Source of the DNA: Petrosia ficiformis
Taxonomy: Eukaryota; Porifera; Demospongiae; Haplosclerida; Petrosiidae
DNA length: 64,000 nt
Reading direction: 5' to 3'
Assembly: GCA_947044365.1 (NCBI GenBank)
Contig: OX345640.1
Span: forward strand, 7,550,410 to 7,614,409
How positions within the stretch are numbered: the stretch's first letter is position 1; each line of letters opens with the position of its first letter. Positions 3,537-25,234 of this stretch are shown one piece after another. Position numbers and translations under genes: made by a program. The notes beneath the pieces are model-generated. The model was not told where the DNA came from, did not search any database, and saw nothing but the letters and a program-made list of their open reading frames with translations.

Positions 3537-6500
3537 TCAGAAGAAGTATCCGTATTTTGTTTTCATTTCTACTATTAAAGGTGAACCATGTTTCTTTTCT
3601 TCACGAGCAATCAGTTGTGCTTTCTCCCTTTTAGTTGGTTGGATTTTAACGTTGTACATATCTCCTGAAATGCAAATGTAACACAAAGATGGATGGAGTA
3701 CCAAAGTTTCCCAAAATGATTGCTGTGGCATTGGTATGGCGACGGGAATGAATTCTTTTCTATCTTCTTCAGGCATTTCTACATTAAGGAATCCATAATT
3801 AGCTGGTCTACGAAATAAAACTTTCAGGATTCTCATTTCTTGATTTTTCAGTAACATATTTATAACATGAGGAATTATTTCATCGTGTCTAAAAAATGGT
3901 GGAAATGTAACTGCCAATGATTTTAGATTATGAATAGCTTCAAAAAATTCTTTTAAATTATTGCCATCTAAAGGTCTATAGTCTAAAGCCAATTCTTGTA
4001 GTGTGTTGTTCTCTCTCAGACCAGCAGTCAGGTATTTTACAGGTAAAACCATCCATTGTATTTTGATCTTCAGACATTGTAAAGTTTTGTTTGATGATAG
4101 CATTAGTTGAAGAGACTTTCCTACTTCATCACGAAATACTGGTATCTCCCAGCATGAGTAGAATGATTTAGATGTTATTTTGAGAGCAGTGATAGTTGTG
4201 TTGCTACAGATAATGTTAAATAGTTCAGTAAAGCTTTCTTCTTGGTCTAGTTCTATACTCAGATACTGTAGAAAAGGGTTAGAGTCAAAGCAGGTAGTGA
4301 ATGGTATCTGAGGTTTATATAAGACTAGACTTTTCAAATTAGTTATACTTCTTTCAACATTTTCAACTCCATATGACAAAATGTCTGATTTTTTTACTGG
4401 GTGTACATGTGTCATAAAATCACATACTGTGCTGTCTCCCAGGTCTAGTGCTGTAAGAGATTCGTTAATACTTAGCGATGTTGATGGAAGTATTCTGTCA
4501 AAAATTAAATTCAATTTAACAGCTTTTAAGGTTTGGTTGGTGATTAATAACTCTTCAACTGATTTGAATGAAATACAAGAACGGTACTTCTTTAACGATA
4601 ATGAAAAGAACAGGATTGCTTCATTTCTCTTGACTCCTGTAAGTAAACTGTTTATTAATGTATTGCATTGTGGAAAATTTAAATTAATCAACAATTCCTT
4701 AACAATGTAATTTCCAGATATTACATCCTCCATTTCCAGGAATACCTCCGGTAGTTCATCATCGATGTCATCTATTGAGAAACTAAATCTTATTTGAATA
4801 TCAACGTGCAGGATTCTCAGGCAAGGCAGTTTAAAGAGTGCTGTAAACATGATGACAGGATGTATGGTGTCTGAAGGGTACAATACTTTAATATAACTCT
4901 CTTGAAGGTACTGACACAATGATGATTGGTGTATTTTTATTACTGATGTGATATCACGATAGAGTGCTTTTTTAATGGTGCAATCGAACATGTCTGAAAC
5001 TTCATCACTCATTGACTTGAATGCATCACCATATTCAAGTTCGAGATAATTCCAAGTTTTCCTTGAATTCTTCAGGAAAAAATACAAACAGAGTAAGTCA
5101 AATTGTGATGAATTGAGTCTATGTGCACAGAGAGAAGAATTTTTTATGGATGAAGCAAATATCTCACACAAATGTTTGTTCTGCGACTCGTAAAGTAGAT
5201 GAAGCAATTGTATAGTATCTGTGTCATAACGTTCATGAAGAGGATATTTACTGAAGACACTGTTCATATCAAAAATTTGTTCACAAAGCATCTGTGGATT
5301 CTGATGATACACAGAATACTGATGAGATTCAAAACCAAATAATGGTTTCTTTATACACTGTAAGTCCACCTCTTTACTGAAATACTCTTGATAGTTTTTA
5401 TCTTTAAGTTCAGTCAGACCTGCCACAAATCTTAGTGTCATGCGAAAGTGAATATCTTGGTAAAGTTTTCCAAACAGCTTACTGTGGTCATCTTGCTGAG
5501 ATATCCACCATGCTGCCAAGAATTCCTGAATGGTTAGATGAAGAAACTGATACTTAGTAGTGTCTGCTATCTGGTAACAGTTCATTAGTCCGAAGTATTC
5601 ACACTTGGATGAATGCGGTAACTTCAGCATTTCATTTTTATTGAAAGTGGTAATATGTGTCTTAAGATTCACATAAGCACAACAACAAAGTTCATCAAAT
5701 GCTATTTTCTGAACTTCTTGCAGTTCCTCAAGTGATTCAACTGTGTCTGGATTGAGTTCCTGTTTTTTCATTGATCTCCTTATAGCGTAAAGAACAAATT
5801 TCATATAAAACTCAGTCAAAGTGTTCGGAAGAGTACAATCACACAAGTGATATACTCTCACTAACATGGAGCATACAAAGGGAATATAACACATTGATAG
5901 GACATCTTCCCTCGTCTCTAACTTCACTATCAAATCTTCAGCATTCTCTTCAGTCAACTCATTCTTGATGCACGAAAAAATCTCATGTTTCTCAAATCCT
6001 AATACTTCAATATGGCGATCAATGTGTCTCATTTCAAGGAGTGACGTTGAAGCATATGTACGTGAAGTAACTAGTATGCTACATTCATCAAGGTAATTAC
6101 CTCGAATAATATCCAATATTAGCGACCTGTCTCTGTTTCTTCCCTCAAACTCATCCCATCCATCAAACATCAGTAACACACCTTTACCATTTCGCTCTTT
6201 TATGTGTTCACTAACAGTTTCACAAATATTTTCATTACTATGAAATAGAGAAACAAGATCATAAATGTTTTCAGCTGATGTTATTCTGTCATCTCTAAGA
6301 GGAAGAAGAAGTACTAGATCAATAAAACATTCCTTCAGTTCATTCTTAGCCCACATGTTACATAGTTTTTGGCAAAGTGTAGTTTTGCCCACGCCTGGGG
6401 GTCCATCAACTACTACTTTGACTGAACTATTATATTGATAGCATTTCAGTACATCTTTTATATCTATGTTTATTGAAGTTTTCATGATAATGTCAACGTT

Positions 6501-8904
6501 TCCTCTTAACATATTCCATGCCCTCTGTACTCCCTGCTCTAATGTAAGATATCCTCCATGTCCCATAATGAGTCCTAGTTGTCCAAATCTGTTTTCACCA
6601 ACACGTCTATTTAACAAGTCATGATGCACTACAGGCGTTTGAAGATATTGATCACGTAATTTGAGAACGAATCTGTCAGTATCAGATATGATTTCAGATG
6701 GTAATGACACGCCTATATGAATATAATTAGAATTGCATCTTTTTATGAAAATTACTATAATATATAGCAACAAACATAAAATTATACTTTATTAGCTTAC
6801 CAAGGTCATTTAACATAGTGTTGCATATCATTAGTATCGCTGAGTTTCCTTGTTTGGTTAATACTTCGCATAACAAAATAAGTGCCTTTGAATTTTTGCT
6901 GGTTTTAAGAGATCGTTGAACTTCATTTAGTAATTTACTGGCCTTTTCATAACGAGAAACACCAAGAGTAGTTATGATATCATCTTTAACAACATTAGAT
7001 ATTAGATCAACAGCCCATAGATCATTAGCAAGTCTATTAGCATCATATACAACATCAAGTATTTCAGAGAAATGTCTCTTCAATATGTTGAATGGACAGG
7101 AGTCTGTATACAATAATTATATTACAATAATTTATTATGTTTCATTGCAAAAATTAAATTGTTAAAATAAACAATTTATTGCACTGTAAAATTGAATGGG
7201 TTATTTTAACCCTCATTTGATTACATGAGTTTCAATTCCTCCCGAGACTATATAAATCAATTTTACTTTCTTGTCTAGCTAGGTAATGTTTACAAGTAGT
7301 AATTTATTTATTTTGATTTTAATCTATATAGTATATAAAGTACATGCCATGATAAAGAATGGTAACAAAACCAAAACATTGTACATGTACTTTAAACATG
7401 TAAATCCATAATACATGTGCTGACTTTTCAAATATTAATTGTAGAGTACATCACATGTTATTAAGTACAAATTGATGTGCATATTTATATAACTGGAATG
7501 AGCTTGTAATATCTGGGGTTTTTTTCATAGATTTTGGAATTAGAATACTAATGTTACACCACAGAATACGTATATAGTTACATTGTTACCATATGCTTTA
7601 TTATGACATGTACTTTATATCGTACTAGTCAATATAGATCAAGATCAAATGAACTGTGCATGACTTGTAAATATTATCTAGCAGGAAAAATAAATCAGCT
7701 TAGAGGAAAATATAAATGCATTGAAGTTCCTGTAACCAATTGAAGGTTGAAATAGCCCATTACTTTTTATAGTGTCGTTACCAAGGAATAACATAAAACT
7801 TCAATCTAGTTTGTCATATAGGTTGTGGCTAAATATATAATCTTACTATGACATTATGTGCAACAAGTATAAATGCTACACTATAGAATAAATGAAATTA
7901 TGTGTTTACAGGTTCCAAACCCTTTAGTTGCATGGCCAGACACAATCACTTTAAGTGGTAAAGTTGCTACATTGTTGGCATGAAATATGAGTAGACAGCA
8001 CCCTAAAAGTATACTGCTTCAACTAATTAGTTTAACTACAAGCATCAGCTTGTGTGTATCCATAACAATCTGAACAACTCTTGCAACTGTCCTAACCAAT
8101 AAAATAGTTATTTTAACAATTTTGTTTAACAAAGAAGTAGTATGCTTGTTTCAGCTGACTAGCTATACTGAATATTTTATCTCCTAGTATAATAGGTGAA
8201 ATTGTCAATATATTACAGAAATGATTACTTTCTTCACTAAGCATTTTTCTCATTGCATGTGCAGCATCTTTCTCTTCACACTTGTCTACTGATGATATTA
8301 ACGCTTTCCATGATGCTTCTGATGTGTTCTTCATCCACCAATCCAATGCTATCTCAAATGCATAGTCATATGTTTCCCCTTCCTTTATTGTAGCTCTTAA
8401 CGTTTCCTTTTGTTCTAGTGGAACATTCAAGATACTTGCTAACAAATACCACTTGCTCTCAAAATTAAATCCCGATTTACAGAGTAGTGCTATTGCTTTG
8501 CCAGGAGTCAGCTCTGTTGTTAATGAGGAAAGTGGATTATGTAGATAATGATAATTATTTTACAAAGCCAAAGTGACTTTGCATTCCTAAACACACAAAA
8601 TAATAACTTATTATAATTATATTAATAACTAACCCACTGGTCCAGGATTTGATTCCACATCACCGGAGAGTATCAATTGTAGAAATATACACACAGTCCA
8701 CACACTAGTATAACTCAGTAATGTTTTTAGAATATTCATGCACATTTCAAGAGTTTCACTCCCCCAGTGATAATCTTTCGTCCACTGTATACCTTGAAAA
8801 CTTTGTGTCTTGTTTTGATTAACATGTCTTCTCTTTTGCTTGATAGACTTCATATTACAACACCATATTCCAATACAAACTCTCCATTGTATGAGATCAA
8901 TCAT
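3537..8904 (-). CDS. NLR-type receptor: 2A leader, death-like, CARD-like, NACHT, LRR
   Basis: Four exons: 8634-8904, 8238-8513, 6801-7103 and 3537-6712. All junctions are GT-AG and in phase, giving 1341 aa. Residues 1-90 have a hydrophobic stretch at 60-80 ending in the 2A motif GDVESNPGP. Residues 91-182 resemble a death domain (ALDWWMKNTSEASWKALI). Residues 183-283 resemble a CARD (LKRHFSEILDVVYDANRLA). NACHT follows, with Walker A GPPGVGKT at 387-394, Walker B LMFDGWDE at 464-471 and sensor ILVTSRT near 496. The rest, from about 960, is a degenerate leucine-rich region. In the family this is a cytosolic sensor that oligomerises through NACHT and signals through death-fold domains. The start ATG follows an in-frame TGA upstream. 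The ligand is unknown. Fold calls for residues 91-283 rest on pattern, not alignment. Confidence 0.92.
7104..8237 (-). other. NLR intron 2, no gene seen
   Basis: AT-rich sequence separates the death-like exon from the CARD-like exon. I see no coding exon or clear mobile element inside it. Confidence 0.5.
8634..8664 (-). other. 2A ribosome-skipping motif at the end of NLR exon 1
   Basis: The exon reads L-I-L-S-G-D-V-E-S-N-P-G-P-V and then splices. It matches the full 2A consensus D-[VI]-E-x-N-P-G-P with the usual upstream Gly and Leu residues. In known 2A peptides the ribosome fails to form the last Gly-Pro bond, releasing the upstream peptide and continuing from Pro; here that falls between residues 88 and 89. 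A hydrophobic run precedes it, as in the N-terminal 2A signal sequences described on sea urchin NLRs. Activity is inferred. Confidence 0.88.
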
Positions 8905-10348: not shown

Positions 10349-10729
10349 AACTCCATTCAATGTACTGAAGAGACATTTCTCTGAAATACTTGATGTTGTA
10401 TATGATGTTAATAAACTTGCTAATCATTAGTGGTTATTTTCCACCAACATTGTTTAAAGAGGATGAAATATTTTCTGACGTCGCAAATATGTTACAGAGA
10501 AATGAAGACATGAATAGACTGAAAGTGTTTATCAATGAAACATCAATCATTTTGTGAAACTGTGTTACTCCATCTATCACTGAGTTACATTTGCATTTCA
10601 GAATGTATCCTACGCACTAATGTGGAGAAAATGCAACTGATAATTGCTCGTGAGCAAAAGAAACTCGGTCCACCTCCAATAGTAGAAATGAAAAGAAAGT
10701 CTGGATACTTCCTCAGGCTGTATATATAG
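10349..10729 (+). pseudogene. Inverted NLR relic (CARD exon start joined to LRR end)
   Basis: On the strand opposite the intact NLR, 10349-10433 is nearly identical to the start of its CARD-like exon ('tgaagagacatttctctgaa' is shared) and then hits a stop. From 10434 the sequence jumps to the C-terminal LRR and tail of the same protein family (FPPTLFKEDEI, then LLHLSLSYICIS, then IVEMKRKSGYF). The NACHT and most of the LRR are missing and there are further stops. It is a rearranged, dead copy, not a gene. Confidence 0.85.
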
Positions 10730-22826: not shown

Positions 22827-23615
22827 TAGGATTAATTAATTAATACATGATAATGTGCAATTATGTATTGAGTAGTATCTTTACAAAGAAAAGTATGAAA
22901 AGAGGAGACTCGTTCCTAAACATTGATGAGTGTGGGTCTGGGAACAAAATTATCAAAGTAACATGTACATGTACATGTATGTACTTGCCTTTAAACTTCT
23001 GATGAAAACATTTGTTTTATCCACTTCCAAAAGGCTATAGTTCATTGTTCGATTAGAATTAAGAATAAAATGCTCATGGTTCTAACAGATAACATTTTTG
23101 ATCAAAACCACTTTATACAATGTAACTCTGAAATAAGTTTCAGCTGAATCTGTAACTTATAGAGTACCAAGGCTACAGTTCAGAGTCTAATTAGACTTCA
23201 TGCAACCATAATGAGATTATGACATGATTATAATTATCTTAAGCCAGGCAGTACCATCGATAGAGAAGGTTGTGGTTGTATATTTATAGAAGTGAATTCA
23301 TTTCTATAGTAACAAATGGTTACATCAACTATTTTTGTCCTTTCGCCATTCCTATAATTATGTGTGTATAATTATTGTACTATAATACATTGATGTATGC
23401 ACGTTTGCAAAGTTAGGGGCTGCTTCATAAAAGAATACTATTTTGAGTGCATAAATGTAGCTATTAAGAATACTAAGCAATTACGTTAAATCAAGGGATT
23501 TCAGCCCCTCCCCTTTGGTCTATATAGTATATTGGTTATCCAAATTTCAAAATGAATAAAGCAATTGTATCGTGTGGCTATACTAATTAATTAGAAAATT
23601 CTAACCAAAAAATAG
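22827..23615. other. Convergent intergenic region
   Basis: Lies between the AUP1 stop and the stop of the charged-repeat gene. It holds AATAAA at 23064, about 240 bp after the AUP1 stop, a plausible poly(A) signal. Otherwise I see nothing in it. Confidence 0.5.
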
Positions 23616-25234
23616 TTATAATTCCTTATCAGGTATCTTAGTTTTAGAGGCCTTTTCTTCCTGATGTTTGTATTTATTTTCTTCCTGTTCTTCCTCAGAC
23701 GTTTCTTGCAGTTCTTCCTCAGACGTCTCTTTCTTTTCTTCCTGTCCTTTCTCGTGCTTTTCTTCCAGTTCTTCCTCAGACATCTCTTTCTTTGCTTCCT
23801 CTTCTTCATTAGACGTCTCTTTCTTTTCTTCTTGTTCTTCCTCAAACGTCTCTTTCTTTTCTTCTTGTTCTTCCTCAGACATGTCTTTCTTTTCTTCCTG
23901 TCCTTTCTCAAACGTCTCCTTCTTTTCTTCCTGTTCTTCCTCAAACGTCTCTTTCTTTTCTTCTTGTTCTTCCTCAGACATGTCTTTCTTTTCTTCCTGT
24001 CCTTTCTCATGCTTTTCTTCCTGTTCTTCCTCAGACGTTTTTTTCTTTTCTTCCGATTCTTCATCAGACATTTTATCCTTTTCTTCCCGTTCTTCCTTTT
24101 CTTCCTGTTCTTCCTCAGACCTCTCTTTCCTTTCTTCCCGTTCTTCCTTTTCTTCCAGTTCTTCCTCAGACCTCTCTTTCCTTTCTTCCCGTTCTTCCTT
24201 TTTTTCCAGTTCTTCCTCGGACCTCTCTTTCCTTTCTTCCAGTTCTTCCTCAGACCTCTCTTTCCTTTCTTCCCGTTCTTCCTTTTCTTCCAGTTCTTCC
24301 TCAGACCTCTCTTTCCTTTCTTCCAGTTCTTCCTCAGACCTCTCTTTCCTTTCTTCCCGTTCTTCCTTTTCTTCCTGTTCTTCCTCAGACCTCTCTTTCC
24401 TTTCTTCCCGTTCTTCCTTTTCGTCCAGTTCTTCCTCAGACCTCTCTTTCCTTTCTTCCCGTTCTTCCTTTTTTTCCTGTTCTTCCTCAAACGTTTTTTT
24501 CTTTTCTTCCAGTTCTTCCTCAGACCTCTCTTTCCTTTCTTCCCGTTCTTCCTTTTCTTTCTGTTCTTCCTCAGACCTCTCTTTCCTTTCTTCCTCAGAC
24601 GTTTTTTTCTGTTTTGCATTCTTTTTCTTCCCCTTTTTTTTCTTTTTGTCTTTCGCTTCTTTTTCTGCAATAATTTCATTAAAATCACCCAGGGGAATAG
24701 CACATGCACACTCTTCAATATCACATTCTCTCTCTAAGTGTTTGCACAGTTCTTTACACACTGGAATATACTCATTGGGACATCTAGTGCCTGACTTAGA
24801 GTTTGGATCGTTCGAGTCTTGCATCATTGTTAATCTAATGAGTTTGTCTTTTGGAACTATATTTTGTGATAAAACGTATATTGAAAGAGGACTTATGTAT
24901 TATAATTATTTTACTTAACATTGACTACTTTTAAATACCTAAAACACTTTCTGTTAAGTAATATAAAAGATGGGCATAAGTTGAGGTAGGCTAAGGTATA
25001 TATCCAGTTAATATCATGGTGATTAACCTGGTACGAAGCTTTATCAGATTATAGTTACATACATAACTAACTATAGAGAAGTTATTAATGTCATTAAAAA
25101 TCACAAAGTAATATCATTATACTACACCATTACAAACTACCTGCTCTCTTGTTTGAAGGAGATTTTGCAGCACTACCAACCAAAATAAAAACGGCTAGAA
25201 ACACTATTTTCATCTCCAGTATTTTCAAATTCAT
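23616..25234 (-). CDS. Predicted secretory-pathway protein: Cys-rich head, Lys/Glu repeat tail
   Basis: Two exons, 25141-25234 and 23616-24856, join in phase (donor g|gtagtt, acceptor aatatag) to 444 aa. Exon 1 is a signal peptide (MKIVFLAVFILVGSAAKS from the second ATG). A head with six Cys follows (RCPNEYIPVCKELCKHLE, then RECDIEECACA), close to the Kazal spacing C-x7-C-x10-C but with Leu where Kazal has Tyr and a longer last gap. About 330 residues are then imperfect 11- and 17-residue units rich in Glu and Lys (EERKERSEEEL, EEKKETFEEEQ), likely one long charged helix. The C-terminus is PDKEL, similar to but not matching the KDEL-type ER-retention pattern. Family not recognised. Other frames are open only because the repeat lacks stops. 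Confidence 0.75.
23690..24600. repeat. Coding minisatellite, 33/51-bp units
   Basis: Pyrimidine-rich on the + strand, built from 'tcttcctcagacctctcttt' and 'ccttttcttcc' blocks. Period is 33 bp with an optional 18-bp extension. It keeps three or more frames open at once. Confidence 0.9.

Follow-up and report, generated by a model that had tools for sequence, protein, structure and literature searches.

Why a sponge receptor gene should open with an exon whose product is likely to be separated from the receptor during translation, and what role such a leader might have after its release, are questions raised by a gene on the minus strand of the window (the 64,000-nucleotide stretch of Petrosia ficiformis DNA analysed here). 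We addressed them by following the leader from its own exon to its relatives in the genome, and from there to the mobile elements that carry a leader of the same design.

The leader exon and its receptor gene

Exon 1 (8634..8904, minus strand) comprises 90 codons plus one base, with the leader proper spanning Met1-Gly88. Read 8904..8634(-), it runs MIDLIQWRVCIGIWCC...TVCIFLQLILSGDVESNPGPV, then one extra base, and the plus strand of the same interval is interrupted by stops. The coordinates in the initial annotation, given there without a strand, proved exact, and its account of 90 codons ending GDVESNPGP|V and splicing in phase to three further exons stands, the joined frame being intact. Intron 1 (8514-8633, minus strand, GTTAGT...AACAG) is in phase 1, its donor reading G|GTTAGT (8633) and its acceptor AACAG|AG (8514). 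It is followed on the same strand by exon 2 (8217..8513), intron 2 (7104-8216), exon 3 (6801..7103), intron 3 (6713-6800) and exon 4 (3537..6712), which encodes the NACHT domain and a C-terminal region and terminates at a stop codon; introns 2 and 3 are both GT-AG and phase 1. Joined, the four predicted exons give 4047 nt with one terminal stop, encoding a NACHT protein of 1348 aa. Judged by its sequence, 8904..8634(-) opens a sponge NLR gene as exon 1, and its product is a leader that ends in a 2A.

The domains downstream of the leader were assigned with differing success. The NACHT domain (5952..6416, minus strand) is firm (Pfam PF05729, E=1.4e-22), with chains of NLRP3 (E=4.9e-13) and NLRC4 among the matches, as expected of an NLR. 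The labels 'death-like' for exon 2 and 'CARD-like' for exon 3 could not be confirmed, as neither exon had a match above Pfam cut-offs. Pfam Death reached only E=0.11 in exon 2, for which a single-sequence structure model gave six helices (pLDDT 73), and we therefore describe it as a helical domain with death-like as a candidate label; exon 3 is left unclassified. Pfam detected no LRR family in exon 4, nor in the C-terminal portions of that exon, where divergent repeats are possible, and Pfam found no Helitron domain in the window gene. Elsewhere in the window, remnants of a second NLR copy lie in the opposite orientation at 10350-10714 (+); they comprise an exon-3-like piece that contains a stop (79% identity) together with pieces from the C-terminal part of exon 4, at 46-55% identity. 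Low-complexity long open frames of 371-427 aa occur on both strands at 23591-24899, that on the minus strand being K/E/R-rich.

Four elements can be marked on the leader exon, all on the minus strand. The conserved head, residues 1-14 (MIDLIQWRVCIGIW, 8863..8904), was delimited by a genome-wide head pattern and by entropy, and is followed by a basic cluster, KSIKQKRR (residues 19-26, 8827..8850). A hydrophobic stretch, the proposed tail anchor, occupies residues 61-79 (8668..8724), and the 2A/StopGo core DVESNPGP residues 82-89 (8638..8661), with the skip site Gly88|Pro89 between 8641 and 8640. The layout is a head of the form MID..QWR..IG.W, then a middle that varies and, directly before the 2A, the hydrophobic stretch. 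A hydrophobic run had been placed at residues 60-80; we found the maximum at residues 61-79, with a Kyte-Doolittle mean of 1.70 over 19 residues, a borderline value for the window's class. The stretch ends 9 residues ahead of Gly88 and carries a net charge of +5 on its N-side, so that the leader (stretch at 61-79 of 88 residues, charge +5) has the sequence layout of a tail-anchored protein. Across 240 distinct relatives, the stretch has a median start at residue 57, reaches a Kyte-Doolittle value of at least 1.6 in 225 (below 1.6 in 15) and has a positive N-side in 201. A structure model of the leader gave helices at 4-31 and 42-85, with a pLDDT of 67 that is too weak to serve as a basis.

The plant MADA motif offers an amphipathic-helix comparison for the head, and a MADA-like helix was rejected on the scale used: the moment at 100 degrees was 0.07 against 0.27 in shuffles. 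A start at a downstream Met was likewise rejected, Met1 of MID being kept in 9/9 A1 sequences. In 74 of the 240 relatives Met1 is the sole Met ahead of the hydrophobic stretch, and an internal start is possible in the remaining 166.

The 2A/StopGo core has been defined as (D/G/C/N)(V/I)ExNPGP in the sections of PMC12846837 drawn on here, with which DVESNPGP agrees. The same sections associate L-rich natural StopGo contexts ending (A/S/C)G with D at p12 and S at p15, and report that the assayed representative of the L-rich motif 6 supported StopGo (PMC12846837). By eye and unscored, the upstream LQLILSG of the window matches such an L-rich context, with its SG end, D at p12 and S at p15. Genome-wide, the codon pattern D[VI]ExNPGP occurred 205 times, against 0 times in the reversed control and 0.06 expected by base composition. 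Ribosome skipping at Gly88|Pro89 is likely from the sequence context, with Pro89, as had been proposed, the first residue past the skip site. The earlier suggestion that the leader is released as its own peptide is also likely, given the complete core, the L-rich context, the phase match to a NACHT gene and the repetition of the arrangement across a family.

A leader family in the sponge genome

Searches of the whole genome (191,215,263 bases in 29 contigs) revealed a large number of related leaders. The last 38 residues of the window leader matched 57 places, the head pattern MID[LIVMF]xQWRxx[IVM]G was found at 121 sites (reversed control 0) and QWRxx[IVM]GxW alone at 125 (0 reversed). Head and 2A patterns were searched independently, and in 34 of 36 checkable head sites (those on C1, C2 and C3 to 2.01 Mb, for which the 2A listing was complete) an exact in-frame 2A followed 61-84 codons past the head; it was absent in the other 2.

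We scored 103 NACHT sites among 249 first-look candidates, excluding the window's own NACHT, against 112 leader sites (100 among the head matches listed and 12 from the search with the last 38 residues). A leader lay upstream on the same strand within 3 kb in 45, within 5 kb in 65 and within 10 kb in 70 of the 103, compared with 0, 0 and 8 for same-strand leaders downstream and 0, 0 and 1 for opposite-strand leaders on either side. Starting instead from the 57 leaders, a NACHT was present among the matches listed within 10 kb downstream in 36, while for 7 the contig had no listed NACHT on the downstream side.

Reading 20 leader loci at length, we found an exon-2 relative 59-513 nt past the leader in all 20; exon-4 relatives occurred at 18 of these loci and exon-3 relatives at 5. 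A phase-1 GT donor was retained in 27/27 leader loci, its position varying between 4, 7 and 10 nt past the Pro codon. Two loci of a divergent class, each read over 7 kb, departed from this pattern. At L038 (G000:C1:19138500-19145500), a plausible phase-1 acceptor 71 nt on leads not to a NACHT but to 658 aa of open frame with ankyrin repeats, which has a helical stretch at its N-terminus. After one stop, the same frame continues with 1389 aa of further ankyrin repeats, and at that stop the gene may either be disrupted or contain an intron. At L037 only short ORFs follow the leader. L039 (G000:C3:6850500-6853700; C3:6853115), with leader and NACHT in one open frame, was considered as a possible retrocopy, which would have confirmed the splice between exons 1 and 2, and was rejected: the locus is 93% identical to the intron-bearing L041, and its single open frame arises because the short first intron is retained, contains no stops and is open by chance.

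Relatives were also recovered in protein searches, 116 with the window leader, 553 with a nine-sequence alignment and 128 with the two most divergent classes, from which the best 120 of 553 and the best 120 of 128 were used. Both ends of the leader could be located in 242 of the 254 proteins collected (12 were dropped), giving 240 distinct leaders and 43 divergent representatives. For P0173 and P0156 the best identity over the leader in the sponge genome was 64% and 65%, and for P0210 only the last 62 residues were matched; the lack of a near copy of these three indicates that the family exists in other genomes. An origin in viruses or prokaryotes was rejected, since 25 viral-contig and 45 GTDB pattern matches included no tblastn relative, in collections from which records near the window are possibly absent. 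Nor did the leader fall into a known family: Pfam gave scattered matches, each in at most 2 of 56 members, NCBIfam one sub-threshold match for 5 proteins, one of them exon 2, and the best PDB chain had E=0.19.

Conservation within the family is concentrated at the two ends of the leader. Q6, W7, R8 and G12 were invariant in 43/43 representatives, I11 and W14 were kept in 41/43, and the core residues D, E, N, P, G and P were invariant in all 43, although M1, Q6, R8 and the greater part of the core were required by the selecting pattern, which partly builds in their invariance; G12, I11 and W14 were left free and W7 could be L. Residues 27-30, by comparison, were variable (entropy 3.59-3.75 bits in the 43 representatives). 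Between seven classes, the first 14 codons had a pS of 0.55 and a pN of 0.17, the last 9 a pS of 0.50 and a pN of 0.145. Within the window's class, pS and pN were 0 and 0.033 for the first 16 codons, 0.21 and 0.15 for the middle, and 0.056 and 0.027 for the core, whose ratio of 0.47 comes from little change; because pS of the head is 0, purifying selection on the head is not evident from that class alone.

Helitron leaders and the proposed release of the peptide

The 2A sites of the genome extend beyond receptor genes. Mobile elements were at first thought to lack the head, which holds for two 2A ORFs (L035 and L036, G000:C1:28688177 and C1:29575706) that run into PHD-finger-like cysteine patterns (by eye) without a head and that we take to be, probably, ORF1 of a non-LTR element. 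Reading four more dispersed 2A sites overturned the generalisation. At the 2A site L048 a zinc-ribbon-like stretch follows and no head lies in frame, and two loci are Helitrons with a leader. Each of these has a single open frame, 2232 aa long in L050 (G000:C1:55792400-55799700) and 2246 aa in L051 (G000:C2:14081900-14089300), with starts after a few stop-to-stop residues at MISLQQWRIPIGCF and MVSIEQWRAAIGGF, respectively. Counted from Met, L050 reaches GDVELNPGP at residue 63 and L051 GDVETNPGP at residue 61, and beyond the 2A both carry a region that by eye resembles a zinc ribbon, then DUF6570, Helitron_like_N (E 2e-25 in L050, 1.9e-33 in L051), a PIF1 helicase and OTU. Like the receptor leaders, these have a head (M[IV]S..QWR..IG.F), a hydrophobic stretch and GDVExNPGP, all within the first 61-63 residues; unlike them, they carry Phe rather than Trp at position 14 and have no exon boundary after the leader.

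The F-type head QWRxx[IVM]GxF occurred at 72 genome sites (6 reversed), and a Helitron leader with its following stretch had 86 genome matches, mostly dispersed on C1. On C1 and C2, 24 of 86 2A sites among the matches listed had a W-type head, 30 an F-type head and 32 neither, and the 50 F-type heads on these contigs were followed by an exact in-frame 2A in 26, an out-of-frame 2A in 4 and none in 20. The two kinds of leader are also connected by similarity searches: a Helitron leader query reaches some receptor leaders (E 2.6e-5 to 5e-4), and the receptor-type P0173 reaches four dispersed 2A sites (E 1e-4 to 1e-3). With the 2A removed, hhalign of five Helitron-type against six receptor leaders aligned a 16-residue head (probability 95.9), and with the 2A kept the same profile pair aligned over 19 residues at the 2A end (probability 98.7), values that describe likeness and are no proof of descent, as the profile sets were picked for a shared motif. 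We regard the leader, on these sequence comparisons, as a portable unit that NLRs have in common with Helitron proteins and with one or more ankyrin-repeat genes. Its origin is probably linked with transposons, and the distribution suggests that the module moved between Helitrons and receptor genes. The presence of this module on a transposon protein points either to a general job, in membranes or translation and not peculiar to immunity, or to a common origin without a common function.

How the leader would behave during translation can be outlined from its layout. Residues 1-88 would be translated, the 2A would block formation of the Gly88-Pro89 bond and the leader would be freed, with most ribosomes continuing to give a cytosolic NLR starting PVELTPGK. 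At release the hydrophobic stretch would still be inside the exit tunnel, and for this reason the free leader should be handled as a tail-anchored protein; by general topology rules, the head (MID..QWR..IG.W) and the basic and variable parts would face the cytosol. Where skipping failed, the stretch would emerge with the NLR attached, and a minor portion could enter the secretory or membrane route, making dual localisation of the receptor possible. The released leader is probably a tail-anchored microprotein, and we infer a role for its conserved head. Taken jointly, an NLR first exon, a released tail-anchored 2A leader, a cytosolic NLR and a portable module form the account that we favour and hold to be rather probable. 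A bolder extension is tentative and, to our minds, falls somewhat short of an even chance: that the module (M-I-x-x-x-Q-W-R-x-x-I-G-x-[WF], membrane tail and 2A) moved between Helitrons and receptors in sponges and, in the NACHT and ankyrin genes, gave rise to a large family of microproteins, each produced one-to-one with its receptor yet having a separate role at a membrane, for instance as anchor, sensor or licence for that receptor.

Other accounts fit parts of these data. Were transcription in most cells to begin further downstream, exon 1 would lie outside the receptor mRNA and its place in the gene would be an illusion of annotation; the unspliced reading in the window's class does stop two codons after Pro89-Val90, but phase-matched donors in 27/27 loci, exon-2 relatives 59-513 nt downstream in 20/20 and the constraint between classes make this very improbable. 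We also consider it unlikely that the leader works by dual targeting as in the sea urchin, where the signal sequence is the 2A itself, unskipped product is exocytic, skipped product is cytosolic and the freed leader would be without a role. Gene class and 2A are as in the urchin, dual targeting was shown for SpNLR2A6 (as described in the sections of PMC4981915 used here) and a hydrophobic stretch is present, yet the layout differs, with about 60 residues ahead of the stretch, and the head, superfluous for a bare signal sequence, is conserved like the 2A core (Q6, W7, R8 and G12 in 43/43).

Exon capture by Helitrons is a known process, and the leader could instead be a remnant of it, duplicated with the receptors and kept mainly for its start codon, promoter or frame, with skipping serving to remove it. 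The same leader design on Helitron proteins of the same genome, the match of the heads without the 2A (probability 95.9 over 16 columns) and the excess of F-type sites (72 against 6 reversed) all agree with this, and the sharing also fits conservation that reflects a transposon past. Against it, the receptor-specific D3 and W14 persist in classes that have diverged strongly, the frame is retained together with the donor phase and the 2A, and transfer may have run in reverse, with Helitrons capturing the leader from receptors. We judge the remnant doubtful, on a par with dual targeting, though likelier than it seemed before the head was seen in Helitrons, and keep to a released leader with a head that may have a role of its own.

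Comparison with known systems

Cellular use of 2A is rare. The NLRs of sea urchins are the printed case that we found, and a sponge with more than 120 leaders extends 2A-bearing receptors to an early animal branch and supplies naturally occurring variants in series. Conservation of the head raises a question that goes beyond the urchin model, namely the role of the leader after release. The sharing of the leader with Helitrons offers a concrete route by which 2A could have reached immune genes, and one open to phylogenetic test.

In Strongylocentrotus purpuratus, the SpNLR2A sequences are N-terminal, 26 aa long and functional as signal sequences, and SpNLR2A6, assayed in HeLa and plant cells, showed about 80% skipping, its skip-dead form being secreted (Roulston et al. 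2016, PMC4981915, in the sections used here). The primer sequence given there for SpNLR2A6 has a hydrophobic run beginning a few residues past Met, the 2A-bearing mobile elements named in those sections are non-LTR retrotransposons, and how 2A reached immune genes was judged fruitless speculation by the authors (PMC4981915). The sponge likewise has an N-terminal 2A on NLRs with a hydrophobic stretch beside the core, and both genomes carry 2A in NLRs and in mobile elements. The urchin leader of 26 aa, however, is itself the signal, whereas the sponge leader is 61-130 aa long and has its own exon, a conserved head and a basic, variable middle; the mobile elements differ too, Helitrons being those that carry a related leader in the sponge. 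Equating the two, as the initial annotation had done, does not hold: the stretch begins at residue 61 rather than within a short sequence that is both signal and 2A, and the roughly 60 residues that precede it (family median 56), conserved head included, make a classical N-terminal signal peptide unlikely.

Parallels may also be found in tail-anchored proteins and in long signal peptides with a functional N-region. As in tail-anchored proteins, a single hydrophobic stretch lies near the C-terminus of the released leader with positive residues before it; unlike in either system, the free C-terminus would arise by ribosome skipping, where those systems use a stop codon or signal peptidase. With viral 2A/StopGo sequences of the L-rich class the window shares the core DVESNPGP and an L-rich upstream hexapeptide ending SG, although the sponge element, known here from sequence alone, sits in a cellular first exon. 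The open-access papers searched (subscription papers being outside our scope) yielded the sea-urchin study and works citing it, with no sponge NLR 2A leader and no Helitron with 2A among the matches listed. Against that literature, 2A on NLRs is already known from the sea urchin, and what appears to be new is a long leader with a conserved head, the scale on which it occurs in a sponge, and the fact that Helitrons and an ankyrin gene share it.
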